Shown here in pieces: positions 10,804 through 30,586 of a stretch of DNA of 37,068 bases; within the stretch, counting starts at the first letter, position 1; every line of letters begins with the position of its first letter. The notes under the pieces were generated by a model. It did not search any database. It had not been told where the DNA came from and saw only the letters and a list, made by a program, of their open reading frames with translations. The position numbers and the translations under genes were made by a program. This DNA comes from a virus. The DNA lies in IMG/VR virus record IMGVR_UViG_3300000311_000002, positions 44,761-81,828 of that record; one strand, 5' to 3'.

Positions 10804-12651
10804 ATGGCAACATTTGTTTCCCCTGGTTCGTATATCAGGGAGATAGATCAAAGTTTATACACCCCTACTAATTCAGCTACAACTATCGGGGTGGTTGGTA
10901 CAGCTTCGTGGGGACCGGATTGTTCCTCGGCCCGTGATAAGGGTGGTGGAGAACCGGTGTTATGTACTAGTTTAAATGATTTTATTACAAAGTTTGGCCC
11001 TTCAACAGGTAAATTAACTGGGAAGAAAACTGCTGAACACCCTGCCTGGTACGCAATGTCTCGTTATTTTCGTGAGGGTAGACTTGGGTACTTTGCTAGA
11101 GTAATTGGTGCTTCTGGAGCTTGTGCTACTGCTACTTTAGCTGGAGGTACTTATGGTTCTCCTTCCGGTGGTGTCAAAGTAAGGGCAAGATATAAAGGTA
11201 GTTTAGGAAACCAGATATACTTGAAGGTTTCTGATGGTTCTTATAATAATGATAATTGGACAACTTCTCAAAGTTCGAGAAAACTAACTGTTTACATGTC
11301 TTATGCTAGTGATCCTAATAAGATTGAACAAATCGAAGTTTATGATAATTTGGTAATGACTAGCAGTAAGGGTGGGCCAACCCAAGAACTAACCCAAGAG
11401 GATATTGATAGAGGTTGTAAAACTTGGGAAGACGCAATAGGTTATTTTGATTCTACTAATGATAATGAAGATGACGCAATAGCTGATAATGATGAATTAA
11501 TTAGTAGTTATATAGCTGTTGACGCAACTTGGGCTTCTGCTTCAAACCCAACGGCAACCAATACTTTATCAGATGAAACCTTTGTATATGCACAAATGGG
11601 GTATTCTTCAGACCCGGATGCGTATCAAAGTTCCATTGGTAACTTGACTGTTACTGTAGGAAATGATGGTTCCGAAGGGGTTGATGAGACCACTTATATT
11701 GGCGCTGGGGACCCAGATAACCCTAGTGGCATTCACGTTTTTGACGATGCAGAATCTTTCGTATTGAACGTACTATATGTTCCAGGTGTTTCTCATGTGG
11801 ACGTAATGAATGAACTGTTAGAGGTTATAGCCACTCGTGGGGATTGCATGGCACTAATAGATCCTCCGTTTGGTCTTGGAGTTTCAGATGTTATAAAATG
11901 GCATAATGGTAAACTAACTACTAACCCAGGCGGTACCATATATGACATGCCTGATGGGTCGTTGGCTGTTTGTATTGGTGAGGGAGTTACCGTTCCTCAA
12001 GTACCTTTTAATACTAACATGGCTGCTTTGTACTATCCATGGATTCAAATAAACGATGATTATACTGGGGAAGACGTTTACGTTCCTCCGTCATGCTTTG
12101 CTGCTGAGCATTATGCGTTTACTGACTATGTAGCGGAACCGTGGTTTGCCGCAGCGGGTGAAAATCGTGGTGCTCTAACTGGTGTTAAAAGAGCTGAACG
12201 AAAACTAACTTTGGGTGATAGGGATATTTTATACAGTGGGGGAAATGCTGTAAATCCTTTGGTAACATTTCAATCAACCGGAATTCGTATATGGGGGCAA
12301 AGAACTCTACAACGAAAACCCTCTGCCCTTGATAGAGTAAACGTTCGTAGACTCTTACTATATCTACGAAGAGTAATAGCTGATTCTATTAGATACTTAG
12401 TGTTCGAACCTGATGATCCTACTATGTGGAGGCAGTTCGTAAACTTAGTAACTCCGGTTTTATCTGGTGTTAAATCAAGACGAGGAATTGTTGACTACAG
12501 AGTAGTAATGGATCAAACAACTAATACTGTAGACTTAATAGAACAGAATATGGCTATGGGTAAAATTTATATTAAACCAGTAAAATCAGCCGAAATTATC
12601 GTAGTTGATTTTATATTAACAGCACAAGGAGCTTCTTTTAGCGAAGCTTAA
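10804..12651 (+). CDS. Contractile tail sheath protein
   Basis: A 615-residue protein that forms the contractile outer tail tube. It starts with MATFVSPGSYIREIDQS and a TTIGVVGTASWGP segment, both typical of the family's N-terminus. The middle (about residues 100-290) is an insertion domain rich in Thr/Ser/Asp. The conserved C-terminal domain includes LTLGDRDILYSGGNAVNPL, GIRIWGQRTL, NVRRLLLYLRRVIADSIRYL, a Pro/Trp segment and IYIKPVKSAEIIVVDF, the strands that knit neighbouring subunits. Length is close to T4 gp18 (659). It has an AGAGGTA ribosome site and a 78-base leader, the longest in this stretch, suggesting its own control. The tube gene follows. Confidence 0.95.
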   Translation: MATFVSPGSYIREIDQSLYTPTNSATTIGVVGTASWGPDCSSARDKGGGEPVLCTSLNDFITKFGPSTGKLTGKKTAEHPAWYAMSRYFREGRLGYFARVIGASGACATATLAGGTYGSPSGGVKVRARYKGSLGNQIYLKVSDGSYNNDNWTTSQSSRKLTVYMSYASDPNKIEQIEVYDNLVMTSSKGGPTQELTQEDIDRGCKTWEDAIGYFDSTNDNEDDAIADNDELISSYIAVDATWASASNPTATNTLSDETFVYAQMGYSSDPDAYQSSIGNLTVTVGNDGSEGVDETTYIGAGDPDNPSGIHVFDDAESFVLNVLYVPGVSHVDVMNELLEVIATRGDCMALIDPPFGLGVSDVIKWHNGKLTTNPGGTIYDMPDGSLAVCIGEGVTVPQVPFNTNMAALYYPWIQINDDYTGEDVYVPPSCFAAEHYAFTDYVAEPWFAAAGENRGALTGVKRAERKLTLGDRDILYSGGNAVNPLVTFQSTGIRIWGQRTLQRKPSALDRVNVRRLLLYLRRVIADSIRYLVFEPDDPTMWRQFVNLVTPVLSGVKSRRGIVDYRVVMDQTTNTVDLIEQNMAMGKIYIKPVKSAEIIVVDFILTAQGASFSEA

Positions 12652-12681: not shown

Positions 12682-13359
12682 ATGGGTATACACGTATTAG
12701 CAACAAACTTGGCTCAACAGAATACTGGATTTGAGCCGCAAAGACAACACAACTGGGCAATTGAAATCCCATTTGCCGGACTCTCCGCTGGATCTGGTGC
12801 TCTGATCGGGCTGTTAAGCAGAGCGATTGGAATTGACCTTGGTCATAGTGGGATGGACAACATCGTGTTGTCGCTAGCCTCTGGATTCTTACCAAGAGGA
12901 GCAAACGAAGAAGTTCCGATTCCGTATGGAAACGAGACTGTGTATGTAGCCGGTAAGGCAACCTGGGATGCGGGTGCTCTAGTAATTAGAGACTGGGTGG
13001 ACGTTGACGTAATGGGGGCCTTAGTAGCATGGAGATCGGCTGTTTATAATCCAGCTACCGGTCAAATTGGGTTGGCTAGGAATTATAAACTTGATTGTGA
13101 CGTTCTATTATTTGGTCCTAACTCAGTTGACTCTGTGTTTAGTGATTATGGTGCTACTTATTTGAGAAAGTGGACTCTAGTTGGATGTTGGCCAGTGTCT
13201 ATTAACCCGGCAGCTAACGGTTTAGATATGGCAAACTCAAACCAAGTAATGATTGAGATGGCTCTTCGTTATGATAAGGCTTTCCCAACTCATAGAGGTA
13301 TTAGAGAAAGCTTAGAGGCTGTCGGTGTAAATATGGTTACTCAGGCTATTCTTGGGTAA
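12682..13359 (+). CDS. Tail tube protein (gp19-like)
   Basis: A 225-residue protein forming the inner tail tube. It lies 30 bases after the sheath gene with an AGAGGTA ribosome site, the usual sheath-tube pairing. Recognisable parts are an N-terminal NWAIEIPFAGL strand, a LPRGANEEVPIPYGNETVYVAG strand-loop in two pieces with VPIPYGNETV, a 'WDAGALVIRDWVD' strand, a 'NYKLDCDVLLFG' strand, and YLRKWTLVGCWPVSINP, which match the layout of gp19/Hcp-like beta-barrel tube proteins. The gene seems somewhat richer in G and C than its neighbours, as expected for a highly expressed gene. It ends before a strong hairpin region. Confidence 0.9.
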   Translation: MGIHVLATNLAQQNTGFEPQRQHNWAIEIPFAGLSAGSGALIGLLSRAIGIDLGHSGMDNIVLSLASGFLPRGANEEVPIPYGNETVYVAGKATWDAGALVIRDWVDVDVMGALVAWRSAVYNPATGQIGLARNYKLDCDVLLFGPNSVDSVFSDYGATYLRKWTLVGCWPVSINPAANGLDMANSNQVMIEMALRYDKAFPTHRGIRESLEAVGVNMVTQAILG

Positions 13360-13436: not shown

Positions 13437-14234
13437 ATGGATGATAGAGAGATTTTCGGGACTGACGTCCAACTCCCTTCAAAGGGACTTCTTTATGGTG
13501 GTAAGGTACCTGACGGTAACGTTAAGGTTTCTCCTATGACCACCCGTGAAGAAAAAGTTCTCACTGCCGCTTCTGGTGGTGAGGCAACTTACCAAATTAT
13601 TAATGCTGTTTTTAGTAGGTGCATTAGTGGTCTAGCTGACTTATCAATGGACGACTTATTGCTTGGGGATAGGTTTTATCTTTTACTGGTACTTAGGGCA
13701 GTAACTTTCGGAAAAGATTATTCGTTTAGAATAAACTGTACTAATTGCGGTCAAAGGAATAATCAAAAAATAGAATTACCAGACGATTTAGATACTGTTT
13801 ATTTACCTGATAATTTTATAGAACCTATTAGAATCACTTTACCAGTTAGTAATGCAGAGGTTGGGTTAAGATTACTTCGTGGTAAGGATGAATTTAGAAT
13901 ATCCAAGTATCTTAAAAAGCTCAATGCAAAGGCTACAGTACCCCTGGGAATAGACCCTGCTTATACCTATAGGTTAGCCTGTCAAATAACTGATGTTAAA
14001 TCACAAAGTCTTAATTGTATTAATGAGACTGATAACTCCCATAATCAGATAATGTTATGGATAGATAATCTAGTTGGTAAAGACACTGCTGAAATAAGGC
14101 AAGCTTTAACAAATGCTGATTGTGGCCCTAGTACTGAATTGATTCTAGACTGTCAAAGATGTGCTACACCATTTACCACTACAATGCCCTATGACATAGA
14201 GTTTTTTCGTCCAGGGAGTCGAAGAAGTACGTAA
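13437..14234 (+). CDS. T4_baseplate-family protein (gp26-like); probable tail assembly chaperone, short form
   Basis: A 265-residue protein. The N-terminus has LPSKGLLYGG, then VSPMTTREEKVL, the typical start of the T4 gp26-type baseplate family. Two CxxC knuckles, C101/C104 (CTNCGQ) and C239/C242 (CQRC), probably hold a zinc ion, as in many members. It lies between tube and tape measure, where long-tailed phages encode tail assembly chaperones with a frameshifted long form. Its last 11 codons overlap an open frame that continues into the next reading frame (see 14200-14574). So it may make a 265-residue form and a fusion of about 378 residues. The family assignment is good; the chaperone role is inferred from position and frame overlap. 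Confidence 0.75.
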   Translation: MDDREIFGTDVQLPSKGLLYGGKVPDGNVKVSPMTTREEKVLTAASGGEATYQIINAVFSRCISGLADLSMDDLLLGDRFYLLLVLRAVTFGKDYSFRINCTNCGQRNNQKIELPDDLDTVYLPDNFIEPIRITLPVSNAEVGLRLLRGKDEFRISKYLKKLNAKATVPLGIDPAYTYRLACQITDVKSQSLNCINETDNSHNQIMLWIDNLVGKDTAEIRQALTNADCGPSTELILDCQRCATPFTTTMPYDIEFFRPGSRRST

Positions 14235-14574
14235 TATATATGATGAACAGATGATTTTGTCATTATATACAAATACCTCTTTGACAGATATTGATAATTT
14301 ACCGGTATTTGAAAGAAAAATTTTATTAGAAAAGTTAATTGATATAAAGAAGAAAGAAAAAGAAGCTCAGGAAGGCAATGAAGGTAGGCAATCATTATTG
14401 AGAGACCCGCTTCCTGGGGAAATGCATGGTTTGTCAGATGTGGAGAAACTGGGTCGCCCTGAGTATAGAAAAAGACTAAATAGTGAGAGACCAAAACAAA
14501 CTATGTCTAGGGAAGAATTAAGAAAGAAAGCTGACGCGGTATTTTCAGCACGTAAAGATAAACAAAAGAAATAA
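14200..14574 (+). CDS. Second reading frame of the tail assembly chaperone, probably reached by frameshift
   Basis: The frame is open from 14200 (after an in-frame TAG at 14197) to TAA at 14572-14574. The first ATG, at 14251, would give 107 residues but has no ribosome site; the bases before it are AT-rich. Upstream codons read like protein (VQGVEEVRNIYDEQ) and run directly into SLYTNTSLTDIDNLPVFER, so coding sense precedes the ATG. The product has 'LP-x-F-x-R-x-x-L-x-x-(K/R)-L' helices and a strongly basic C-terminus (KKADAVFSARKDKQKK). This suits the second half of a tail assembly chaperone that binds the tape measure encoded next. Reinitiation at 14251 after the stop at 14234 is the alternative. 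Confidence 0.65.
   Translation, partial: SFFVQGVEEVRNIYDEQMILSLYTNTSLTDIDNLPVFERKILLEKLIDIKKKEKEAQEGNEGRQSLLRDPLPGEMHGLSDVEKLGRPEYRKRLNSERPKQTMSREELRKKADAVFSARKDKQKK
14202..14208 (+). other. Candidate programmed frameshift site, TTTTTTC
   Basis: In the frame of the gene at 13437 the site reads TTT TTT CGT (Phe256, Phe257, Arg). A +1 slip moves tRNA-Phe from TTT to TTC; a -2 slip moves it from TTT to TTT. Both keep perfect pairing and both enter the open frame at 14200-14574. The geometry of six identical bases then C resembles the -2 site I recall from phage Mu. It is inferred from sequence and position. Confidence 0.5.
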
Positions 14575-14583
14575 CGGATACTA

Positions 14584-17500
14584 ATGGATAGAGGGGCGAA
14601 TCAATTAAACTTCATGGTCAACTTCCGGGTTGTATGGGAGTCATTAAAAACCGGAGTTAATGATGTATTACAGTTTTTGTCTTCATCAGGTAGAACCATA
14701 AAGTCTTCTTTTAGCTCCTCTTTCGCTGACGTCGGTAAAATTCAGGATCAGTTTGAGAAAAATCCTTATTTAATTTCTCCCCTTGGTGCATCTAAAAATA
14801 TTAAAAAGAAAGTAGATGACCTAAAACGGATGTCTGATGATCTATATAAGACCTTAATAGATAACACGAGAAATTTTAGAGATGAAGCGGAATCTTTAAT
14901 TAACTCAACCCCAGGTATAAAAGATTTCTTTGCTCGTTTTTCAGAGGGAGCAAAGATGGCTGCTAAAGACCTAGCTGATGTTGCTGGTAAGATGGCTGGA
15001 ATGACCATGAAAGCCGGGGCTGCGTTAGGAATTGGAGCCATAGAAGCTATAAGGGAGGAAGCAAACGAACTAGAAAGATTATCAATAATGAGGGACAAGG
15101 ATAATAAGAGCCTTGTTGAACACAGAAAGTTGGTATCTGAAGAAGGGATAGCTATGTCGGAGGTTAACGCTAAGACCGGGGCTTCACACGACTCTTTATT
15201 AGCATATATGGATGAGTTAACTAAAGCTAAACTTCCTTTTGATGAATACTCAAAAAGTTTAATGGAATATGCTGGACACTTAAATAGGTTCATGAACGTA
15301 GATACTAGAGAGATTGCAAAATGGCAGGGAAGATTTCGAGTTACTTTCGGGGCCGCAGCGAAAGAGTCTACTGATGCGGTAAGAGTATTGGCAAGTAACT
15401 TAGATGCTCTGCAAAGAGAAAATTTAAGTTCTATGAATGACCTTATTTCTGACGTTAATTCATTTGACCAGGAAATACAGGCTTTTAATTCACAGAGGAT
15501 TAAGGATCTACATGGAGACAGGGAACAGGCTTTAAAAGAGACCGTGGAGTATGCAAGTAGACTGGCTGGAATTGCCGAGGTCATGAAGAAAAATCTTTTA
15601 CCCCCTGATGTAGGACCCAGAATTTCTCAGATGTTCAGGGAGATGGATGCAGAAAAACTTTATAAAACATTCTCATTAACTTTACAAAAAGCCAGAGATG
15701 CTGGTCATGCTGTCCCGGAATCACTTGAAAAATCTGCTGCGGCTATTAAAAAGGGTGATATTACTGGGTTTTTGATTAATTTAACAAGGGGGTTAGCCGA
15801 ACTGAAAAAAACTGGAAGTTTTGACTATATGACCAAGACAATAGCAGAATTTACTAAGGGTCTGGGTTTTGGCATTAGAGAACTTGGTATCTTTGCTAAT
15901 AAAGAAGAAGATATTGTTAAAGGTCTTACTAAAACAGAGGAGATTATTGAAAACACTTCCGGTAATGTAGAGGAGCTAAACAGGCGGATTAAAATGTTTG
16001 ATGAGACATCTACTCGTTCTATGGAAAGACTTATTGGATTATTTACTCATGGTTTTCGTGTGTTTGGGTATGTATTAAAAGATATTGCGTTTGACCCATT
16101 GGCAGACTCATTATCACATTTAATAGAAGTTATTTTAGGCCCTGGCGATGAACCTTATAAGAGGATAAGTGAATTTTCAAAAGCTTTGGGTGGACTATAT
16201 AAAGTTACTATGCCTTTTATGGCTTTGGGAGCGGTTACAATTGGTAAAACTTTAATAGGTAGAATGATTGAACTTTTACTTGGACCGGAAGTAGGTAAGG
16301 CAGCAAAAGCAGCAATGACTCTTACTGGGTCTATGAAAGGATTGTTTTCCCTTAGTGGTGGTCTTGTTTTAACTGCACTTGTTATGGCTATAGAGGATAT
16401 TCGAAAAAATGCGGATAAAATTCCAGAAGCCATAAGTGGTATAACTCAGAATATGAAAGATTTAAAAGTCATCCTTGATAAGACATGGGAAGGCACCCCG
16501 GTAAAAAAATACTGGGATGGGATAGTTCAATTTATAGATTTAGTGCAAGAAAAATTAAAAAATCTTCATATACCCTCATTGTCGAGGATGGTTAAGCAGC
16601 ATATTTCTAACTCAATTAGGACTCAATTGAATATAGAGAATGCGGCTAAGCCCGAAGGCCAACGTGGTGTTCCTCTTCCTATGGTTCAGGAAAAAGAAGA
16701 AGATGGTGGCCTATCTGAACTAGCTTTAGGTGCTATTGGGGGTAAGTATTTATATAATAAGTTCCGTAAGGCGGCAGGGTATTTTAGGGGAAGTAAGACA
16801 ACAGCAACTGGGGCCGCTACAGAGGCTGCTGCTACCGCAGGCCCCTCTACCCCACCTACAACCGGAACTGGCCGGGGATACTTTGCCGCGTGGCGTGACT
16901 CAATGGAAGCTGAGGCAGCTTCTACTGCTGCCGTGAGGCCCCAATCTTCTTGGTGGAATATAGCGTCTGGTAGAAAAGCGAAGGATGCTGTTGCTGCCCT
17001 TGGGGAAAATAATAAAGTTATTGGTGGGCTTTCAAAACTATTAGGTAGATTAGCTATTGCTGGGGTGGGAATGGAAACATTTTCAAGAAGGCAAAAAGAA
17101 AACCCTGACGAGAGCTTTGCTACTTCGGCTGTTGCTGCTGGTGGTAGGATGGCTGGAACTTATCAAGGAGCCGCAACCGGGGCAGCAATAGGAATGGGTG
17201 CTGGCCCAGTTACCGCTATTATTGGTGGTTTAATAGGAGGAATTGTTGGTGGTATAGGTGGGGAAGAGTTGGTGGTTGGGATTAAGAAAGGGCTAGAAAA
17301 TGGCCACCTTGCATCGGAAGTTGCAAAGGCTCTATTTATTACAATACCTCCTAAAATAATTGAGGGATTGGTAGAAGTTGGGAAGTCAATTAAAAATGTA
17401 CTAGAGGTTGGTATAAAAGATTTGTTTGATGCAATGACCCCAAGTGTAACCGGTTTTGTTGATTGGGTTCAAAAGAAGATTTCTAATTTTGCTAGTGGCT

Positions 17501-18066
17501 CTACTGAGGACGCTGTTGAGTCATCGAAAAAGGCAGTTCAGTCTGTTTATGAGGAGTCGAGGAGACTTGCTGAAGAAGCAAGTGCCGCTATGGGTCCTCG
17601 TAGTACAGAACCAAATCAAGGAAGTATGGTACAGCAATCTGGGTCTTGGGCGGGGTTTAACAGTCCTTTTCCTCCACAAGATCAGGTTTCAGTTGAGGAA
17701 CATGCCCAAGGAGGTATGGTAAGAAAACCAACTTTATCTTGGGTTGGAGAAGCAGGACCTGAAGCTATAATACCAACTTCAAAATTTCCTGAATTAGCTG
17801 AAGACGTTTCCGACTCTGTGATAAACAAATTAATATCTCTATTAAACCAGAATAGTCAATTAAAACAGAATAGTGATAGTACCCAAGATTATATAACAAA
17901 GGATAGAGATACTGAGAAAATAAGAGTTGATAACTCGGATATAATATTTACTCTACAAGAAATGTCTAGGGAAATTGTATCAGCAACAGATAGGGTTAAT
18001 GATACTTTAAGTAATTTTGGTTCAAGTAATCCATTAATTGACGGGTTAATAACAGGGAGATTTTAA
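14584..18066 (+). CDS. Tail tape measure protein
   Basis: A 1160-residue protein that sets tail length and is injected through the tube. Long helical, charged segments fill residues 1-480. Hydrophobic stretches lie at about 137-155, 537-575 (FMALGAVTIGKTLIG) and 862-900 (Gly/Ala-rich GMGAGPVTAIIGGLIGGIVG), the last typical of membrane-active parts. Near the end is the common tape-measure signature with AQGGMVRKPTLSWVGEAGPE AIIP (about 1041-1066), followed by a coiled-coil-like tail (VINKLISLLNQNSQL). I saw no cysteine. At the usual rule of about 1.5 angstrom per residue the tail would be near 170 nm; that is inference. Its stop overlaps the next start. Confidence 0.92.
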   Translation: MDRGANQLNFMVNFRVVWESLKTGVNDVLQFLSSSGRTIKSSFSSSFADVGKIQDQFEKNPYLISPLGASKNIKKKVDDLKRMSDDLYKTLIDNTRNFRDEAESLINSTPGIKDFFARFSEGAKMAAKDLADVAGKMAGMTMKAGAALGIGAIEAIREEANELERLSIMRDKDNKSLVEHRKLVSEEGIAMSEVNAKTGASHDSLLAYMDELTKAKLPFDEYSKSLMEYAGHLNRFMNVDTREIAKWQGRFRVTFGAAAKESTDAVRVLASNLDALQRENLSSMNDLISDVNSFDQEIQAFNSQRIKDLHGDREQALKETVEYASRLAGIAEVMKKNLLPPDVGPRISQMFREMDAEKLYKTFSLTLQKARDAGHAVPESLEKSAAAIKKGDITGFLINLTRGLAELKKTGSFDYMTKTIAEFTKGLGFGIRELGIFANKEEDIVKGLTKTEEIIENTSGNVEELNRRIKMFDETSTRSMERLIGLFTHGFRVFGYVLKDIAFDPLADSLSHLIEVILGPGDEPYKRISEFSKALGGLYKVTMPFMALGAVTIGKTLIGRMIELLLGPEVGKAAKAAMTLTGSMKGLFSLSGGLVLTALVMAIEDIRKNADKIPEAISGITQNMKDLKVILDKTWEGTPVKKYWDGIVQFIDLVQEKLKNLHIPSLSRMVKQHISNSIRTQLNIENAAKPEGQRGVPLPMVQEKEEDGGLSELALGAIGGKYLYNKFRKAAGYFRGSKTTATGAATEAAATAGPSTPPTTGTGRGYFAAWRDSMEAEAASTAAVRPQSSWWNIASGRKAKDAVAALGENNKVIGGLSKLLGRLAIAGVGMETFSRRQKENPDESFATSAVAAGGRMAGTYQGAATGAAIGMGAGPVTAIIGGLIGGIVGGIGGEELVVGIKKGLENGHLASEVAKALFITIPPKIIEGLVEVGKSIKNVLEVGIKDLFDAMTPSVTGFVDWVQKKISNFASGSTEDAVESSKKAVQSVYEESRRLAEEASAAMGPRSTEPNQGSMVQQSGSWAGFNSPFPPQDQVSVEEHAQGGMVRKPTLSWVGEAGPEAIIPTSKFPELAEDVSDSVINKLISLLNQNSQLKQNSDSTQDYITKDRDTEKIRVDNSDIIFTLQEMSREIVSATDRVNDTLSNFGSSNPLIDGLITGRF

Positions 18067-19337: not shown

Positions 19338-21422
19338 ATGCCAAGCATATTAAGAAATACCAATCGTGGGGAAGTTAGGGATTGGATTGATGCTCGTTCA
19401 GGAGGGATAGATCCTGACTTTTTAGAGGCCATAGCTTTGAATGAAGGGTCTGGTAATTTGAATACTTGCCTTGATGGGAAACCCACTGGAGGTAAGGGGT
19501 CGCCATGGGTGTATGGGATGATGCAAATAAGTGCCGCAGCGGCAGTTGATGCGAAGTTTGATATTGCCAATTTTAAAACGGGTGCTGGCTTAGTAAAGGA
19601 GCTTGAGTATGGATATAGCCGGGGTAGGCTCTCAAATCCCTCTAGTTTATCAGACCCCGACATAAATGTTAGGGCTTCCGCTGGGTATTTTAAGTGGTTA
19701 AGAGATAAGTATTGTGGTGGGGACGGAACTGCTTATAGAAAGATGGCTATTGGTTATCATGCTGGGCCTTCTGCTTTAAGTTTTGTTGTTTCTTCTATAG
19801 GGCCAAACACTAGTACTTATGTAGAGAGAGTGATTAGAGACCTTAAAATTATTAAAGGGGCAGCGTTTGTTGATAGTGATATAGATTATACCAAACCAGT
19901 TTCTGAACAATTAGGAGCAAAAGCTAAATCAGGGTTTAGATGTAAAGCTGCTAAGGATTTAGTAGAGCCGGGGATGTTCCCATATCCATTACCCCCTAAT
20001 CCTTTTCACGCTACCTTCAGTTGTCAAATAGGTGGAATATTTAATCCAGATACAAGAAAGTTAGATGGTGGTTTTGATTTAACCCCTAAAAGACCCCAGT
20101 ATATAACTTACTTTGAGTATACAGAACGTCTTGGATCAGAGACAGACTCTTTTAGAATAAGGATGTTTGATCCTGAATGGGATTCAATTGAACAAGAAGT
20201 ATTGAGAAAATGTAACCCTGATTATATCCCTGTTTCAGTGGGTTCAATTTCTGTAATGAGGCCAGACGGGGCCGGAGTTCCGTTTTCTCGTAAAGAAAAT
20301 AAAAATCAGGTTAGGGAAAAATTTATTTATAGTGGTTTTGAAAATATGTCTTTGACTTGGGGTTATGTTTCAAGTGATTTTACTACCGGTGAACGTACTC
20401 CCGTATCTTTTGTTAGTAGCCCACGAATGGCCCGACTCATGGGGTATCAACCTACTTTCGTTGGTTGGGGGGTTGACCTTGAATTAACCGGGTTGGCAAC
20501 CGATATCCTGTCGAAGTTAGAGGGTGGTGAGGATTCTTATATAGGTGGTGAATATGAGACTCCCACTGATATAGCAAGAAAAATAGCCGAGAGAAATAAT
20601 TGGCCAGACCCTTGCCTTGAACAGAGTAAGGTTGTTCCAGGTGATGATGGGAAACCAAAAAATTGGGAAAAACCATCAAAAATGGATGATTTGACCTTTT
20701 TACAAACTATTGTAGCCCCATTAGCTATTAGTGCTGAAGATGAAAATCGTGGTGGCTTTATGGTAAATTTTGATAACGAAAAGAAAATGCTACATTTTCA
20801 CAGCGTCCCGTATAATTTACCAATTATAAGAGAATATGAATACGCTAGGAATAGAACAGGAGCGATAATATCTTATAAACCTGAGGTAAATGGAATAGCC
20901 ATGGTAAATTTAGGGGCTTCTACTACTATCGCTCAAGGCTACGATACTTTAAATAAAGAACCGATTACTGTCGAAGTGGATGCTAGTGTTACTAAAGATG
21001 CTCAAGTTGAGGGTGGAGTAACAACTTTTAGGACTGAGCCAACACCCGATAGTTTAGACCATGCAATCAGAGAAGAATTTGGGGATAAGTATTTTGATTC
21101 TTCCTTAAACTCAAAAGAAGCCGTACGAATTGAGGCAACAAACTATTTTACGTCTCTTAGAAAATTTGCTATGACTGCAACACTTAGAATTATTGGTGAC
21201 CCTTTAATAAAACCAATGAGAAGAATAAGAATAATAGTTAATAGCAGTCGTGGAGTTCCCCATTTTGTTTCAGGAACTTGGTTTATTCAAGAAGTAAAGC
21301 ATATTATTAAAAACGGTAGTTATTTTTGTGACCTGTCTTTATTTCGTCACGGTGGAGAAAGTTCTTCGGCGGGTGACATGGTTACATACGGTCAATACGA
21401 TAAAGGAATACAAAATGAGTGA
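19338..21422 (+). CDS. Baseplate hub protein fused to an N-terminal lytic transglycosylase
   Basis: A 694-residue protein. Residues about 20-175 form a soluble lytic transglycosylase (SLT) domain: catalytic Glu E36 in ALNEGSGNLN, then YGMMQIS, a helix with ASAGYFKWLRDKY, and AIGYHAGPSAL, matching the E-S-G / G-x-M-Q-(I/L) / A-Y-(N/H)-x-G motifs. Residues about 200-694 form the hub: beta-barrel-rich with FECQ-like strands (HATFSCQIGGIFN), DSFRIRMFDPEWD, FIYSGFENMSLTWG, a helical ETPTDIARKIAERNNW segment, and IRIIVNSSRGVPHFVSGTWF near the end, the layout of gp27/GpD-type late-control proteins. The enzyme would open peptidoglycan during tail penetration. In T4 the cell-wall enzyme is on gp5, not the hub, so this arrangement differs. 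Confidence 0.85.
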   Translation: MPSILRNTNRGEVRDWIDARSGGIDPDFLEAIALNEGSGNLNTCLDGKPTGGKGSPWVYGMMQISAAAAVDAKFDIANFKTGAGLVKELEYGYSRGRLSNPSSLSDPDINVRASAGYFKWLRDKYCGGDGTAYRKMAIGYHAGPSALSFVVSSIGPNTSTYVERVIRDLKIIKGAAFVDSDIDYTKPVSEQLGAKAKSGFRCKAAKDLVEPGMFPYPLPPNPFHATFSCQIGGIFNPDTRKLDGGFDLTPKRPQYITYFEYTERLGSETDSFRIRMFDPEWDSIEQEVLRKCNPDYIPVSVGSISVMRPDGAGVPFSRKENKNQVREKFIYSGFENMSLTWGYVSSDFTTGERTPVSFVSSPRMARLMGYQPTFVGWGVDLELTGLATDILSKLEGGEDSYIGGEYETPTDIARKIAERNNWPDPCLEQSKVVPGDDGKPKNWEKPSKMDDLTFLQTIVAPLAISAEDENRGGFMVNFDNEKKMLHFHSVPYNLPIIREYEYARNRTGAIISYKPEVNGIAMVNLGASTTIAQGYDTLNKEPITVEVDASVTKDAQVEGGVTTFRTEPTPDSLDHAIREEFGDKYFDSSLNSKEAVRIEATNYFTSLRKFAMTATLRIIGDPLIKPMRRIRIIVNSSRGVPHFVSGTWFIQEVKHIIKNGSYFCDLSLFRHGGESSSAGDMVTYGQYDKGIQNE

Positions 21423-22907: not shown

Positions 22908-24959
22908 ATGAAATTTTTAAAATACCTGTTTTTGTGCTTGGGTATTATTGGATTATTTTATAATACTTCTCAAGCTGCTGTTAGTATTTTATACCCAGAA
23001 AAAATGGCTAGGGCCGATGCTGAATCAATGTGCCAAAATGAAACAGGGGGTGACGTAGTAAGTCATTGGTGTCTCGGGAGAGATTTCCAATATGATAGTG
23101 GCCCTTTAGATGAGTGTTCTTCTTATGTACCATTAGTAAATTATTGTGGGGCGGTAGGGAGATCTGTAAACTATTTATATTTTTCTTCTACAGAAATTAA
23201 TAATGCTTTACAAAATGCGGCAGATAAAAGTTTGATACATGCTGAATTACGAATAACTACAACTGACTGTTCTTGGTCAAACATATCTAGCGGGGGCCAC
23301 GAATGGAAAACCAGCTATTTAATTCATACTACGCTAATGGAACAAGACTGGGTTCCCCCAACTAGTTACAATTGTTCTACTGATTTAGATCCAACTAATT
23401 CTGATGCCGATTGTGTTACAACATGGGGAGGGGGATTATCTAGCCCCTCTGCTATAGGTGATTGGTATCCTGGGAAGTTACTTTATTCTGGAACATATAC
23501 TTGTGTGGAAGCAACCCCTATACCCGGAACTTCAACATCGGTTCCGTATACAAAGGTTCTTGATGCTACTGACGACGTTATTAGATGGTCAAATTGTTCT
23601 GTATGTGATAATCCACACACTAATTTCGGGTGGAAGTTTGAGACTCAGCACGTATCTGGTTCCGAATTATTAGTTAATGCTGCTAGAGTTAGTAATGTAG
23701 TTTTATTGATTAGCGATGGGGTTCCAACCCCAACGGCTACTATAGAACCTACAAGGACTGTTACTTCAACTCGTACTCAGACTGGAACTTATACGGCAAC
23801 AAGCACAGTTACGGCAACCTCAACTGCAACAAACACAGCAACAGCAACTAGTACCTCCACTGCAACTTCAACCAGGACTTTTACTTCAACTCCTACTGTA
23901 ACCAGGACCCCGACATATACTTTTACGGCTACTAATACTCCTATATTTACTTTTACTAGTACGGCTACTAGGACTAGTACAAGAACCTATACAAGTACAA
24001 ATACCCCGACTAGATCACCAACGTCAACAAATACATCTACCCCTACTTCCACAGCAACTAGTACCCCATCTAGTACAGGCACTTCAACAGCTACTCGTAC
24101 TAAAACCCCAAGTAGGACCGCAACATCTACTCTTACTAGAACAGCAACTCGGACAGGAACCAGAACATTTACACCGATAAGAACGCCGACTTTTACTTTA
24201 ACTCCTCCTCCAACTAACACCAGGACGTTGAGAGCTACTAGGACTAAAACTCCTTTACCATCACCGACCTCTGCTGTTTGTTTTGACGAAGGAACCTCGG
24301 TGTGGAGACACAATTGTAATATACCTGCATCGGGGATGGAACTATATGGAGATGAGGAAGGAAAAGCAAAATTTCGTCTACCTCCTCCTATATCTATAGC
24401 GTTTGATGCTACTACAATGGATGTTGATGGTTCAGGAGCGAGGTCAATAGTACCATTAAATCTTTTTGGAATTTTAGACGAGGGGGTTTCGTTTTCTAGT
24501 TCAGAACTTGCTTATGGCTCTATCCAAGGTTCTATTATGGTAAATAATTATTCTGGTGGCCCAATTAATTTTACTGTTGGGTCGGTTTACACTGGGTTAG
24601 TCTATGGGAATTGGGTTGGGGCCATTGGGTGTGATTGTGTTAACCTACGACCAGTAACACCATTGCCTACACCGGTTAGTTTAAATTTTGATAATTTTAA
24701 CCCTACGTCTAATTGGCTTGGGGATAACTTTATCCCATTGACTGTGACTATTCCAATTACTTTTGTCACCCCTTATATAGATATAAAAGTTGTCGGTGAT
24801 ATTGATTGTGATAGAGGATGCTCTCCTAATAATGGGCCAATCAAAATTCGGTGGGCAATTTATTATGATGGGGGTCGTACTAATATTACCCCAAATAGAT
24901 TTTATATAACAGATTTATTAATGTCATATAGGGCTTTAGATTCCAACGGTGTTAAATGA
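22908..24959 (+). CDS. Exported protein with long Thr/Pro linker, two cysteine-rich domains
   Basis: A 683-residue protein. A signal peptide (MKFLKYLFLCLGIIGLF, then SQA as predicted cleavage, about residue 23) is followed by an N-terminal domain (about 25-270) with ten cysteines and two Trp-rich segments. A Thr/Pro/Ser/Arg linker of about 180 residues (272-454) comes next, then a C-terminal domain (about 455-683) homologous to that of the preceding gene. The N-terminal domain is not recognised. The C-terminal copy has six cysteines, lacking the pair C105/C123 of its paralogue (A511 and F529 here). Total cysteines are even (16). There is no catalytic motif. Probable exported adhesin or fibre component by architecture only. 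Its stop overlaps the next start (ATGA). Confidence 0.65.
   Translation: MKFLKYLFLCLGIIGLFYNTSQAAVSILYPEKMARADAESMCQNETGGDVVSHWCLGRDFQYDSGPLDECSSYVPLVNYCGAVGRSVNYLYFSSTEINNALQNAADKSLIHAELRITTTDCSWSNISSGGHEWKTSYLIHTTLMEQDWVPPTSYNCSTDLDPTNSDADCVTTWGGGLSSPSAIGDWYPGKLLYSGTYTCVEATPIPGTSTSVPYTKVLDATDDVIRWSNCSVCDNPHTNFGWKFETQHVSGSELLVNAARVSNVVLLISDGVPTPTATIEPTRTVTSTRTQTGTYTATSTVTATSTATNTATATSTSTATSTRTFTSTPTVTRTPTYTFTATNTPIFTFTSTATRTSTRTYTSTNTPTRSPTSTNTSTPTSTATSTPSSTGTSTATRTKTPSRTATSTLTRTATRTGTRTFTPIRTPTFTLTPPPTNTRTLRATRTKTPLPSPTSAVCFDEGTSVWRHNCNIPASGMELYGDEEGKAKFRLPPPISIAFDATTMDVDGSGARSIVPLNLFGILDEGVSFSSSELAYGSIQGSIMVNNYSGGPINFTVGSVYTGLVYGNWVGAIGCDCVNLRPVTPLPTPVSLNFDNFNPTSNWLGDNFIPLTVTIPITFVTPYIDIKVVGDIDCDRGCSPNNGPIKIRWAIYYDGGRTNITPNRFYITDLLMSYRALDSNGVK
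23721..24272 (+). repeat. Thr/Pro-rich linker repeat region
   Basis: About 180 codons in which Thr alternates with Pro, Ser, Ala, Arg or other residues. At the DNA level it is a degenerate repeat of ACN-rich codons, about 45% G+C by a 60-base hand count, higher than the surrounding gene because of codon content. It encodes an extended, probably unstructured stalk between two folded domains. Antisense open frames here are by-products of the repeat. Confidence 0.8.
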
Positions 24960-27900
24960 GAAAGTTTATCTTATTTCTATTAGTTTTATTAATTCCTATT
25001 AAAGTTAACGCGGTAAACTGTTCTTCGTATGAACAGTTAATAAAAAGTAGTCCTTCATTACCAATATCTTTTTTTAGGATGAAAACTGATAGCCCAACAG
25101 GAGTACTAATAGATGATACCCCACAACAATTTAATGGTTCTTACACTTCTTATTGTTCTTATGGGGAGCCCTCTTTAATTGTCGATACGGAATCTAATGC
25201 TGGGGCAATCGCTTCAAGTTCCACTTCTTGTTACGCTAGTTTGAATGGTGAGATAGTCCCCGCAAACGGCACAGACGGGTTTTCTCTAGAAGTTTGGGTG
25301 AAATGGTCTTATGATTTAACTTTATCAATGGAAAAATCTGTTATTGCTGTTCCTTGGGTTCCTAACGTCTTTTCGTATCCTGGTGGGGGTGGGGGTGCAG
25401 CGGCTTTAGCAATAGTTGGTCCTGATGACAAGCTGCGTTGTTGGATGGGGGTTTACTATTCCGTAGATCCAAATGTTGGTGGGAGATCTGTTACCTCTAA
25501 TGGTTCTTACAATGATGGAAATCCTCATTACGTAGCATGTGTTTATGAACCCCTAGATGTTGGTAGAGAATTTAAAATATATGTTGATGGTAACTTAGAT
25601 AATTATGTACCACAAAATCTTGAATTGCAACAAAGTGCTTCTAGTTCTCCTAGAGCATTTTGTTTTTCTGGTAGTAGCGGAGACCCGGTTAGCTGTGCGG
25701 GTAGTAGTACTAAATTAACTATAGATGAGATAGTAGCTTATAGAAGACCTATGGGGGCTTCTGAAATATACGATCACTATGACGCGGGTAAAAATGGTTG
25801 CACTACACAACCAACTTGGACTCCTTATCCAACAAATACAGTAACTTTAGTGCCTACAGAAACTATTGAACCTACTATTACTGAAACTCCAACTCCTTCA
25901 GTTACTAATACACCAATAGATACTTACACAAAGGCCCCAACTTCAACGGTTACTCTATCACCTACTATAACTATGACGCCAACGGATACACCTATTTATA
26001 CAGCAACCCCCTTAATTCCATATACACCTACCAATTCTCCAACGGTAACTTTGTCACCAACTAGGACAGCGACGAGTACTATAACTTCCACAAAGACCTA
26101 TATATTTACTGCAACTTCAACCCCAACTATAACTTTGTCACCCGTAATGACACAGACGCCAACTAGTACCATAAGCCCAACCCCAACTAGAACTCCTTAT
26201 GGTGGGCTACCAGGGGTACACGTAGACAATCTAGGTAGTCACGTAACTGAGGTAGATGATTTTAATTGTTCGGATTGGGGAACAACTACAAACGCAGAAT
26301 CTTGCGATGACACCGGGTCTACTGTACTAATTAAATACCCTTGTTTAATGCCAGATATGCTAAGAACAAGTTACTTAGATGTTGACAGTTCAAGAATTCC
26401 AGATACTGCGGAGATTTTATGGATCAGGGTAAATGTAACTAGAAAGTTACAAGAGTACCCACCGGACTGCTTTTATACAGAAGAAAATTCACAGCTCTGC
26501 GTAACTGATAGTATTTATTATTTTAATACTTCCCAAGGATCTTTTTCACCTGATGCTGACTCCAAAATAATAACACAGAAAGTCGAGGGTTCATACTACC
26601 CAGAACTTGAGTATTCTACATTTAGTGTTACCTACGATGTCTCTGGGTGGGGGTTAGTTGGTTCTGACATAACTGGGGATACTAATTTTGGTATAGATTA
26701 TAATGTTTCTTTATTAACCCCTTATTATATGATCCCGTTTTATGCTGGTGGTCAAGCAACTATGGATGTTGACTGTATAACAATGGATATCGGATATAGT
26801 GAATGTAATGATGATTCCGATTGTGTTGGTAGCTCCTGCATTGATCATTCGTGTGTTGGGCCAGCTTTGACTCCTACTCCATTTCCGTTGGTACCTGCTT
26901 TTAGTGATTGGAAATGTAGAGCTTCTTTTGATATAGATAATACGAGTAGGGGAGAACTAACCGACTATCCAGTTGGGTTAAAGTTAGATTTTTCCATTAT
27001 AGACTATGATAATTCACTTGATGATGGGGCGGACGTTATAGTAGTAGACTCAGACAATTCTACTGTTTTAAGTCATGAAATAGAAACTTGGGATAAAGTT
27101 AACAAAAACTCGATGGTGTGGGTTAAAGTACCAACTATTGAGGCTGCTGCTACTCATAGAATTTATTTGTATTATTGTAAATGTGGAGCTTCAACAACAT
27201 CAGACCCACCGAGCGTGTGGGATTCAGATTTTGATGCTGTTTATCATTTAGATAAAAATCCATTTAACTACCATAATTGTGGTAATGACACAGGAAATGA
27301 GTGTGATTCAACTCGTAATGTGAGCCTTGGTGGTTCTGGGAGTTACCATAATAGTCTGTACCCATTAGTTGCTGGTACATGGGGGGTGGTAGATTTAATA
27401 GGGGATAATGAAGCTGTATGCCCATTCGGTAGATGTATAGATTTTACTAACACAAGTAGGCCAGGTACCAGTATTAGTGCTTTTAAAAGTGGGGGCTTTG
27501 TTAATGCTGAGGGTATTGTAGACCCATCTACTCTTACTGGTTTTACTGTTGAAGCTGTATTTAAGAGGGACACACGAGCATCAGCGGGGGTTGGTGGGTT
27601 AGTCGCTCAGCATATAACAGGTTTGGCCTCTACAGTATATAATAGTTATTTGTATTTAGACAGTAGTTATAAATTATCAGCAAATTTAATACCAAAAACC
27701 CCTACCCCCGTTGTGGTAACTGGGGCTACGGCTGTTAACAACACGGATTATCATTATGCCGTAACAACATTCGATGGTACTGATATTCGAGTATATTTAG
27801 ACGGGTCGCTTTATGCTGGGCCTACTTCAGTTCAACCTCTTCGTAGTAGTACAGAGCCTTTTTATATTGGTAGAGCTACGGCTGGGGGTCTTACTGGGTA

Positions 27901-30586
27901 TATGGATGGTAGAGTAGATGAGATAAGATTTAGTAGTTCTGTTAGATCCGACGATTATATATCAGCAACTAATGCTAATATGAACGGTACTCTGGTGAGT
28001 ACGGTTGAGTCCTATTCAGTGAACCCGGTTTGCTTTACCCCAACACCAACACCAACAAAAACCCCTACGCCTGCGTGCTATGATAATTATGATGATGTAA
28101 CTTGGAATAAGCATATAGCTACGAATGCTTACTATAAATTCGATGAGCCAGATGTTGATTACTGTAATATTTCATTAGAAACTGATGTTTGCAATGAAGC
28201 TGTTTCTCCTTCTGGTGGTATTGAGTATAATGGGAAAATAAACTATTTTGGTTCTGGCTATATATGGAATTTTCATCAAACTGGGGCTATTGATGGGGAA
28301 AGAGGGTGGGCGGTGTCAGCTTCTAGTAGACCTTACGCATACCTTAACCAGAATTTTGGTGGAACAGATAGAAACACTATCAGCCTTTGGGTTAAAGCGT
28401 CTGGGTGGGCCACCCAAAAGAAAGTTAGTATAGTGGAAAGGACATCCAATTTTGACTTATGGATAGGAACAAGTGTCGATGGGTGCTCAGCTAGCGGTGG
28501 ATGTTTTGTATGTAAATTTACTAATGCCTGGGACGGTACTGTATTAGCGTCAGTAGTTGGATCAACTAGTCATACAGATGGGAATTGGCATCATGTTGTG
28601 TGCAGATTAGACAATGATGAGAATTTATACATAAACAATGACGGTACCATAAGTTTGTGGGTCGATGGACAAATAGAATCTTACTCGTATTTGCCTTCAG
28701 GTAGAATTACTTATGCTACCGGTGGTTGTACATTGTTTGGTAATAATGGGGGTTTATCGGGGTCTGGTGATTATCCAGATTCAGGCCATATAGTTGGAAT
28801 AGATAATTTAACATTTTACAGTGGTGCTTTGTCTGATGATGATATAAAAGAAATGTATTATGCTGGGACCCATAAATGTAGGTCCGATATAAATTTTCAA
28901 AATACTTGTTATTATGCAACAGGACATGATAATTTTTATATAGACAACTCTTCGTTCAATGATACTGCTTTTGCTATAGTGAAAGGTGATAATGAACAAA
29001 CTTCTGTGTGGGCGGTAAAACCAAACAGTACGTCTTGGGATAACAATATTTCTTATAGAGGAAGTGGTATTACCCCTGCCATTGTTCCTACTCCAACCCC
29101 AACAGGAACACAAAGTACAAGGTTGTATTTTACTGACAATACCCCTGCTTATACTCCCTCCTCTTTAATGGAAACATGGAGTACACCTACTGGATATTTA
29201 AATAGGGAACTCTCTTCTACTAAAGCTGGGTCAATTTCTTCTTTAACTTTATCTTCTTTACCTGCTGGTAACAAATTATTTTATAGATTTATTTCTCAAC
29301 CCTTAGCAGAAGATATAATATTTAATTATGGAGACGCTATAACCGTTATGTTAGGGGCTCAGGAATCTAACGCTTTGGCTAATTATGGCCCTGCGTATTC
29401 AGCAAAAATATTGGTTGGTGACACGACTACGGTTAGGTGTTCTTTACCATCGTTTCAGTACTCTATAACACCGGAGTTTAATACTTCCCCGATGTCAGTA
29501 ACTTCTAGTGCATCTTTCGTATTTTTTGATGATATATGCAAAGCCTATTTTGGTGATAGACTGGTGGTTGAGGTTGGTGCAAGAGTCGGGGTAGCTGGGT
29601 ATAATGGGACTATGTGGACAGGAGGGACCTCTGGTGATTTAGATAGGGCAACTCAATATGACCCAACTGTATATACAGGATGGGTGGAATTTAGTAAAAA
29701 TATAGCTTTTGGTACTTTACATGATCCACCGAGTTATCTTACCGGAGGAATAAAGGCTCTTGGGACAAAAGGGATTCTATTAGGTAATGATCCTACAGTA
29801 AACTGGAATGAATATGATAGATATTGTGCATATATGTGGAATGATTCAGATGACATGTCAGTTTCTTATTATGTAGGGAGTGGTGGGGATAGAAGCATCA
29901 GTCTTCCTTTTTCTGCTGGAGTAATTATTGTTGGTGGAGACGGAGTAGACCCATATGTGAAAACCTTAGACATGCCTAGTTCCGGCTCGTATCCTTGGGG
30001 GACCGCAGGGGCTATTTCTTACGGTAAAATAAAATACTTAGGAGCATCTAGTTTTACTGTTGATGCAAGTATGAACGTAAATGGCATAACCTATCATTAT
30101 GTGGCATGGAAAAACGGAGCCACTGGGTTTATACATGGAACGTACGATGGTAGTAATTCTGGTGGGCAGACCCGAACAACAACCTGTTCACCAACTTTTA
30201 TATATGTCAAACCTTCAGATGCTTCTGCCGGTGTAATGAAAGGATATGACACTCCATATGGATTTTCTCAGAGACTTGACGCTAGTGTTGATGAAGGAGG
30301 AATATCTACTTTGGGTTATGATGCAGGAACACTAAATTTTACTGTGGATAGTTCTTTAGATGTGTCGGGAACTAGTTATTATTGGTATGGGTTTTGTGCT
30401 GGTGGAAATGACTTTTTGGATTTAACAAATAGTTCAAATATTCTACGACTTACCCGTGACCCAGGCTACTTATCTAAAACTAGTGTTAGAAAAGGATCTT
30501 GGAGTGGGACGAATAGTTATATGACATTAAAAGGAAGCCCTAATAAATTTGGTCCTGTTGGGTCAAAGTCAGTTACAACCCCGTGA
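24956..30586 (+). CDS. Very large exported multidomain lectin-like protein
   Basis: An 1876-residue protein, the largest here. A signal peptide (MRKFILFLLVLLIPIKVNA) precedes: a LamG/ConA-like domain (about 75-280, with FSLEVWVKW, FKIYVDGNL, DEIVAYRR); a Thr/Pro linker (281-414); a cysteine-containing beta domain (420-625); a DUF2341-like domain running into a second LamG (651-1018; YPVGLKLDF, IYLYYCK, IRVYLDGSL, GRVDEIRFSS); a short linker; a third LamG (1042-1308; SLWVKAS, WHHVVCRLD, ISLWVDGQI); a fibre-type beta domain (about 1382-1585); and a C-terminal region with two copies of a 'F-T-V-D-x-S-(M/L)-(N/D)-V' module. LamG folds usually bind glycans. Several receptor-binding modules on one exported chain suggest a surface-glycan adhesin or extended fibre. 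Family calls are by eye. Confidence 0.7.
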   Translation: MRKFILFLLVLLIPIKVNAVNCSSYEQLIKSSPSLPISFFRMKTDSPTGVLIDDTPQQFNGSYTSYCSYGEPSLIVDTESNAGAIASSSTSCYASLNGEIVPANGTDGFSLEVWVKWSYDLTLSMEKSVIAVPWVPNVFSYPGGGGGAAALAIVGPDDKLRCWMGVYYSVDPNVGGRSVTSNGSYNDGNPHYVACVYEPLDVGREFKIYVDGNLDNYVPQNLELQQSASSSPRAFCFSGSSGDPVSCAGSSTKLTIDEIVAYRRPMGASEIYDHYDAGKNGCTTQPTWTPYPTNTVTLVPTETIEPTITETPTPSVTNTPIDTYTKAPTSTVTLSPTITMTPTDTPIYTATPLIPYTPTNSPTVTLSPTRTATSTITSTKTYIFTATSTPTITLSPVMTQTPTSTISPTPTRTPYGGLPGVHVDNLGSHVTEVDDFNCSDWGTTTNAESCDDTGSTVLIKYPCLMPDMLRTSYLDVDSSRIPDTAEILWIRVNVTRKLQEYPPDCFYTEENSQLCVTDSIYYFNTSQGSFSPDADSKIITQKVEGSYYPELEYSTFSVTYDVSGWGLVGSDITGDTNFGIDYNVSLLTPYYMIPFYAGGQATMDVDCITMDIGYSECNDDSDCVGSSCIDHSCVGPALTPTPFPLVPAFSDWKCRASFDIDNTSRGELTDYPVGLKLDFSIIDYDNSLDDGADVIVVDSDNSTVLSHEIETWDKVNKNSMVWVKVPTIEAAATHRIYLYYCKCGASTTSDPPSVWDSDFDAVYHLDKNPFNYHNCGNDTGNECDSTRNVSLGGSGSYHNSLYPLVAGTWGVVDLIGDNEAVCPFGRCIDFTNTSRPGTSISAFKSGGFVNAEGIVDPSTLTGFTVEAVFKRDTRASAGVGGLVAQHITGLASTVYNSYLYLDSSYKLSANLIPKTPTPVVVTGATAVNNTDYHYAVTTFDGTDIRVYLDGSLYAGPTSVQPLRSSTEPFYIGRATAGGLTGYMDGRVDEIRFSSSVRSDDYISATNANMNGTLVSTVESYSVNPVCFTPTPTPTKTPTPACYDNYDDVTWNKHIATNAYYKFDEPDVDYCNISLETDVCNEAVSPSGGIEYNGKINYFGSGYIWNFHQTGAIDGERGWAVSASSRPYAYLNQNFGGTDRNTISLWVKASGWATQKKVSIVERTSNFDLWIGTSVDGCSASGGCFVCKFTNAWDGTVLASVVGSTSHTDGNWHHVVCRLDNDENLYINNDGTISLWVDGQIESYSYLPSGRITYATGGCTLFGNNGGLSGSGDYPDSGHIVGIDNLTFYSGALSDDDIKEMYYAGTHKCRSDINFQNTCYYATGHDNFYIDNSSFNDTAFAIVKGDNEQTSVWAVKPNSTSWDNNISYRGSGITPAIVPTPTPTGTQSTRLYFTDNTPAYTPSSLMETWSTPTGYLNRELSSTKAGSISSLTLSSLPAGNKLFYRFISQPLAEDIIFNYGDAITVMLGAQESNALANYGPAYSAKILVGDTTTVRCSLPSFQYSITPEFNTSPMSVTSSASFVFFDDICKAYFGDRLVVEVGARVGVAGYNGTMWTGGTSGDLDRATQYDPTVYTGWVEFSKNIAFGTLHDPPSYLTGGIKALGTKGILLGNDPTVNWNEYDRYCAYMWNDSDDMSVSYYVGSGGDRSISLPFSAGVIIVGGDGVDPYVKTLDMPSSGSYPWGTAGAISYGKIKYLGASSFTVDASMNVNGITYHYVAWKNGATGFIHGTYDGSNSGGQTRTTTCSPTFIYVKPSDASAGVMKGYDTPYGFSQRLDASVDEGGISTLGYDAGTLNFTVDSSLDVSGTSYYWYGFCAGGNDFLDLTNSSNILRLTRDPGYLSKTSVRKGSWSGTNSYMTLKGSPNKFGPVGSKSVTTP
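25800..26199 (+). repeat. Thr/Pro-rich linker repeat region
   Basis: About 130 codons alternating Thr with Pro, Ile, Ser, Tyr and others (for example TVTLSPTITMTPTDTPIYTA). It joins the first LamG domain to the rest of the large exported protein. It is the same class of linker as at 23721, with less Arg and more Ile and Pro, so composition varies between genes although the alternating-Thr design is kept. Confidence 0.75.

Follow-up and report, generated by a model that had tools for sequence, protein, structure and literature searches.

Programmed +1 ribosomal frameshifting as the probable source of two forms of a T4 gp26-type tail assembly protein in a phage

The stretch of DNA analysed here (the window) comprises 37,068 nucleotides, positions 44,761 to 81,828 of the IMG/VR virus record IMGVR_UViG_3300000311_000002. 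The arrangement of two overlapping reading frames between its tail tube and tape measure genes is best explained by programmed +1 ribosomal frameshifting at positions 14205-14208, a reading to which, on the comparative sequence evidence, a probability of about 0.88 is assigned. Very probably one gene yields in this way a short and a long form of a tail or hub assembly chaperone, analogous to the G/GT pair of phage lambda. The short form would correspond to T4 gp26 and the long form to T4 gp51; homology is direct for the gp26 part and goes by way of intermediates in the case of the extension. Conservation extends to the site and to both frames, which are also under coding constraint, and a start codon for the downstream frame is absent or unconserved. 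A sequence-only reading had already suspected a programmed shift ahead of the tape measure gene, and the comparative evidence strongly supports it; to judge from the relatives, the arrangement is more general than could be seen from the window alone. The features are collected in Table 1.

Table 1. Positions of the tail genes and of the elements of the putative frameshift in the window.
Feature	Position	Strand	Remarks
Sheath	10804-12651		upstream of the gp26-type gene
Tail tube protein	12682-13359	+	phrog_4542, E=5e-15; upstream neighbour
gp26-type baseplate hub assembly protein, short form, 265 aa	13437-14234	+	PF12322, phrog_150, AlphaFold2, Shine-Dalgarno (SD) sequence
Frame overlap, 35 nt	14200-14234	+	+1 frame blocked on the 5' side by TAG 14197-14199; 0-frame stop TAA 14232-14234
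Candidate shift site TTT_TTT_CGT	14202-14210	+	P-site UUU 14205-14207 to UUC 14206-14208; A-site Arg codon CGU
+1-frame extension VQGVEEV...KDKQKK, predicted three-helix C-terminal domain	14209-14574	+	phrog_634, profile chain to the T4 gp51 C-terminus, AlphaFold2
First ATG of the +1 frame	14251-14253	+	not regarded as the main start: no SD, in a helix, not conserved
Tape measure protein	14584-18066	+	phrog_794, E=6.7e-8; phrog_1047 (tail-associated lysin), E=6.4e-9; downstream neighbour

The position of the gp26-type gene between tail tube and tape measure is the usual one for genes of tail assembly chaperones. Its ATG is preceded by a strong SD sequence (-10.8 kcal/mol). The product matched PF12322 with E=5.6e-17 and 62.6 bits, above the curated cut-off of 24.5, which places it in this family, and phrog_150, the T4 gp26-type baseplate hub family, with E=1.4e-17. 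The upstream part and the extension were modelled with AlphaFold2 as two separate pieces. The model of the 0-frame product (pLDDT 90.9) was confident as far as the FF motif, and the 0-frame tail beyond it was disordered. The viral fold matches to this model were gp26-type hub proteins, the baseplate hub subunit of SP-15 being the top one; Foldseek returned no significant match in the PDB, and no solved structures were found for the profiles or for T4 gp51. PF12322 was also present in 4/392 bacterial genomes of one phylum, in three of them above the cut-off. A separate 6-kb contig (L002, IMGVR_UViG_3300000309_000024) encodes a gp26-like protein identical to that of the window in 265/265 residues.

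The overlap of 35 bases noticed in the sequence-only reading was confirmed. The upstream ORF ends with GAG TTT TTT CGT CCA GGG AGT CGA AGA AGT ACG TAA, its protein closing with FF-RPGSRRST, and the +1 frame has no stop between 14200 and 14571 and is closed by TAA at 14572-14574. Within the overlap the run TTTTTTC lies at 14202-14208 and is read GAG TTT TTT CGT CCA in the 0 frame; as had been stated, the window by itself permits here a slip of +1 or of -2. A 0-frame UUU followed by CGN inside the ORF overlap is found as TTT_CGT at 14205-14210. The +1 slip on TTT/C at 14205-14208 would join ...DIEFF to VQGVEEV... and gives a fusion of 378 residues, the size that had been proposed.

In the mechanism that we infer, the majority of ribosomes would continue through GAG TTT TTT CGT to the TAA at 14232 and release the 265-residue short form. 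A minority would stall while peptidyl-tRNA-Phe occupies UUU 14205-14207 and CGU (Arg) stands in the A site, where a presumed slow decoding of Arg, together with the fact that tRNA-Phe pairs better with UUC, would favour a forward slip. The tRNA would re-pair one base ahead on UUC and translation would go on with GUC CAG GGA to the TAA at 14572, which would give the 378-residue long form with its added helical domain. A fixed ratio of short to long form, to judge by lambda gpG/gpGT, would probably serve the assembly of hub, tape measure and tube.

In the model of the extension piece, which starts at 14206, helices were predicted at residues 5-22, 26-30 and 34-65, with pLDDT of about 97 over residues 11-50. 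The sole named family matched by the extension was phrog_634 ('baseplate hub assembly catalyst'), to which the C-terminal part of T4 gp51 belongs, and this match was weak (E=0.015). The extension (14209-14571) and its relatives also weakly resemble DUF6760 (PF20546), with 5/19 members matching and a best E of 0.03; this resemblance points to a possible link to other contractile systems, including extracellular injection systems.

By tblastn, gp26-type genes were found in SP-15, LIS04, GXN1, immuto and a 595-kb metagenomic phage. In each of the four named phages (4/4) the gp26 ORF stops a few codons past an FF-type motif and a homologous +1 frame continues without an obvious start. An alignment search of IMG/VR gave at least 80 loci, with 81 distinct junctions once duplicates had been taken out. 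Among the matches listed, the homologous domain lies in the +1 frame at 78 of the 81 gp26-type junctions and in the -1 frame at 3, and the +1 domains are entered at the same FF codons as in the window. These loci are related to one another and the counts are not independent, so that the truly independent sites are fewer than the raw numbers. Re-pairing of tRNA-Phe one base forward, from UUU to UUU or UUC, is possible at 78/78 of the sites listed. The commonest form, AAC TTT TTT TGG CCT GAC (TTTTTTTGG, in 63 loci among the matches listed), reads NFFWPD in the 0 frame and NFFGLT... in the +1 frame, and a site of the same type occurs in Rhodothermus phage RM378. At seven of the TTTTTTTGG sites the -1 frame is open too, yet the homologous domain is in +1.

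Coding constraint was followed from the 0-frame stop to the conserved Met. The differences between related loci fall, by position in the +1 frame, 1009 times on third, 516 times on first and 367 times on second positions (the pairs compared not being independent), and this excess of third positions indicates +1-frame translation of the stretch 5' of the conserved Met. The earlier impression that the downstream frame is protein-like upstream of its first ATG is borne out. At L197, L200, L202 and L206 the FF motif is replaced by LFNP (codons CCC AGT) and the domain is still in +1; here tRNA-Pro could slip by +1 on CCC_A in the manner of the Listeria phages. The gp26-type junctions of the jumbo phages L006 and L090, and those at L080 and L210-L212, have the domain in -1, for the most part at T_TTT_TTC; a TAATG overlap is present in L006 in addition.

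The closer relatives of the window were collected in a second search with SP-15, LIS04 and GXN1 as queries, which gave 35 viral loci and one locus of a bacterial MAG. In this lineage the second Phe codon of the FF site is TTT in 22/22 cases (23/23 with L192); it is followed by C at 22 of 23 sites, and CGN is the codon after it at 20 of 23. In the remainder of the genes of the lineage Phe is encoded by TTT and TTC in the ratio 122:50, and Arg by AGA/AGG and CGN in the ratio 183:52. CGN is thus kept against the usual choice for Arg, and UUU_CGN is under selection that goes further than the requirement of the protein for Phe and Arg. That CGN is the minority choice for Arg (52/235) may hint at slow decoding in the A site.

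The same codons bear on the direction of the shift. A slip of two bases back on U6C, from UUU to UUU, would lead into the same frame with the junction EFFFVQG; the TTTTTTC of the window is compatible with it, as are 70/78 sites of the wider set among the matches listed, and a -2 shift is documented in phage Mu (PMC5009743). At the other 8/78 sites listed, which belong to at least six lineages, re-pairing at -2 is excluded and +1 is allowed; these are TTC_TTT_TGG, TTT_CTT, TTT_CTA and TTC_TTT_CGT variants scattered over the tree. Moreover, in the lineage of the window the first Phe codon varies freely (TTT:TTC = 15:7, n=22), each of the 7/22 TTC codons barring -2, and the second is always the TTT that +1 needs. 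Since there are relatives in which -2 re-pairing cannot take place, the direction is read as +1. The -2 slip, improbable in our estimate, was set aside for the lineage on this re-pairing and codon evidence, the window alone formally permitting it. Where the sequence-only reading had left '+1 or -2', the first part thus stands and the second is disfavoured.

Marginally less probable still is separate translation, in which ribosomes stop at TAA 14232 and re-initiate by coupling at ATG 14251 to give a free protein of 107 residues. The ATG lies 17 bases 3' of the stop, and ATGs soon after the stop occur in many cyanophage loci and in the jumbo phage L006. The claim that ATG 14251 has no ribosome site proved correct (no Shine-Dalgarno pairing, duplex energy 0), although this is a weak clue by itself because an SD is likewise missing at 5/26 other start sites scored in the window. 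The ATG corresponds to residue 16 of the modelled piece, within predicted helix 5-22, so that a protein begun there would be expected to be without most of helix 1, and coding constraint extends upstream of it. It is not kept in the relatives and is absent at this point in L187, L003 and L196. Against the shift it counts that, among the matches listed, 34/81 loci do have a start-type codon (ATG, GTG or TTG; ATG in 19) among codons 1-30 of the compared frame, though an SD-like sequence occurs at only 3 of these starts. Re-initiation would also leave the conservation of UUU_CGN unexplained. A separate start at 14251 was discarded, as structure, conservation and SD all speak against it. A good start at 14251 in homologues with no conserved slippery run, a pattern that would have spoken against the shift, was absent from the related phages, in which the slip codon is conserved and the start is not.

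Slippage of the polymerase on the T-run, giving mRNAs one base short, is very unlikely: most sites have T6 or T7, but TTTCTT, TTTCTA and TTCTTTC sites show the same arrangement with at most three or four consecutive T, and these interruptions at several sites argue against it; it was discarded. A sequencing error or a decayed gene, for which nothing speaks besides the broken frame itself, is practically negligible, being refuted by recurrence of the arrangement in the isolates SP-15, LIS04, GXN1, immuto, Mel-JY01 and RM378 and in dozens of independent contigs.

With regard to stimulatory elements of the +1 frameshift, no consistent RNA structure was found 3' of the sites (mean z -0.6 for the 60 nt downstream, mononucleotide shuffle), nor was there a consistent internal SD near the shift site across the sites. 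In the window a predicted hairpin of -11.2 kcal/mol begins about 20 nt farther 3'.

The results go beyond the sequence-only reading in the conserved A-site CGN, in the match of the two parts to the paralogues gp26 and gp51, and in a -1 site at the same place in cyanophages. The literature counts T4 gp26 and gp51 among the chaperones of hub assembly and describes gp51 as essential, absent from the particle and of unknown function (PMC3004832). Both belong to PF12322 (8.8e-64 and 3.9e-52), the family of the window protein. T4 gp26 ends with GLKEFFELL at the aligned site, and gp51 runs on by a stretch of 41 letters aligned with the +1 domain. The two forms in T4 are separate paralogues in divergent placement (genes 26 and 51), whereas the window and other lineages have one copy with a shift site. 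A scan of whole genomes showed two copies in T4 and phiAS4, of which one is short and the other extends to position 281-282 of phrog_150, and a single gp26-type copy in the other phages scanned in this way. With gp26 ending at the FF motif and the extra domain present in gp51, T4 apparently duplicated the gene instead of shifting.

The link between the extension and gp51 rests on intermediates because the direct comparison is not significant: the profile of the window lineage against the gp51 C-terminus gave 3%, and the window extension against T4 gp51 3-29%. In HHalign the window lineage matched immuto-like sequences at 96%, these matched cyanophages at 88%, and cyanophages matched the T4 gp51 C-terminus at 97%; the reversed-column controls gave 0.2-0.3%.

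The cyanophage-type loci (L097-L176) contain U_UUU_UUC shortly ahead of the gp26 stop, with the -1 frame open past the stop, in 77/77 distinct loci. The codon preceding the two Phe codons of the heptamer ends in T in 77/77, and TTC makes up only 27% of Phe codons elsewhere. These phages probably shift by -1 at the place that corresponds by homology to the +1 site; many of the loci have an ATG just past the stop, and re-initiation may occur there. In Synechococcus phage S-SCSM1 the small downstream ORF matches positions 241-281 of phrog_150. At this locus (L094:3150-3215) the heptamer is kept and about 11 extra bases 3' of it place the downstream ORF in +1, the -1 frame being closed; the change of frame may reflect an ATG start of its own, a +1 shift or an assembly problem.

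We consider it likely, from the sequences compared, that T4-type contractile phages make a G/GT-like pair by one of three interchangeable routes: a +1 shift at UUU_Y (UUU_CGN in the window), a -1 shift at U_UUU_UUC (cyanophages), or the gp26/gp51 duplication (T4 and close kin). A review calls the tail frameshift of long-tailed phages widely conserved, 'except T4' (PMC5009743). A T4 pair made from the duplicated genes 26 and 51 would explain this apparent lack of a frameshift; T4 would then no longer be an exception, and the essential gp51 would gain a testable role.

Few recoding events in phages are as well conserved as the frameshift of tail assembly chaperones; its direction differs, being -1 in lambda-type phages, -2 in Mu and likely +1 in HSTV-2 (PMC5009743). 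As in the window, the gene for lambda gpG/gpGT lies between tail tube and tape measure, but the window protein is of the PF12322 or T4 gp26 type, which is another family. Comparison of the window with known G/T chaperone families gave non-significant matches only (E 0.038 and 0.081); the pair of the window would therefore work like lambda G/GT and not be a member of that family.

As a +1 motif, UUU_CGN is known above all from eukaryotic viruses. In influenza A the PA-X site is UCC_UUU_CGU, with +1 shifting demonstrated by mass spectrometry (PMC3498833), and UUU_CGN has been proposed as a +1 site in plant amalgaviruses (PMC5052127). The window shares with them the P- and A-site motif UUU_CGN and, as predicted here, the +1 direction and the change of pairing from UUU to UUC; it differs from PA-X in that the ribosomes are bacterial and that the E site holds UUU or UUC and no UCC. 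The +1 shifts in structural genes of the Listeria phages PSA, A118 and A500, which take place on the proline codon CCC (PMC5009743), differ from that proposed for the window in the genes and in the slip codon. The open-access literature searched contained no account of frameshifting in gp26-type genes or of a UUU_CGU site in phages. The data herein presented supply a large set of predicted natural UUU_CGN-type +1 sites for bacterial ribosomes. Existing annotations miss the downstream domain or call it as a separate ORF, for example in LIS04, SP-15 and immuto.

Rfam and tRNA searches of the window gave no matches. Elsewhere in the window, a protein of 1876 residues (24956-30586) with three Laminin_G_3 (concanavalin-like lectin) stretches and DUF2341 is likely, from its domains, to be a receptor-binding or tail fibre protein. 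A tail-region protein of 694 residues (19338-21422) carries an N-terminal Transglycosylase SLT domain (E=1.6e-5), and a ribonucleotide reductase gene (43-1911; phrog_367, E=2.1e-135) adjoins the structural genes.
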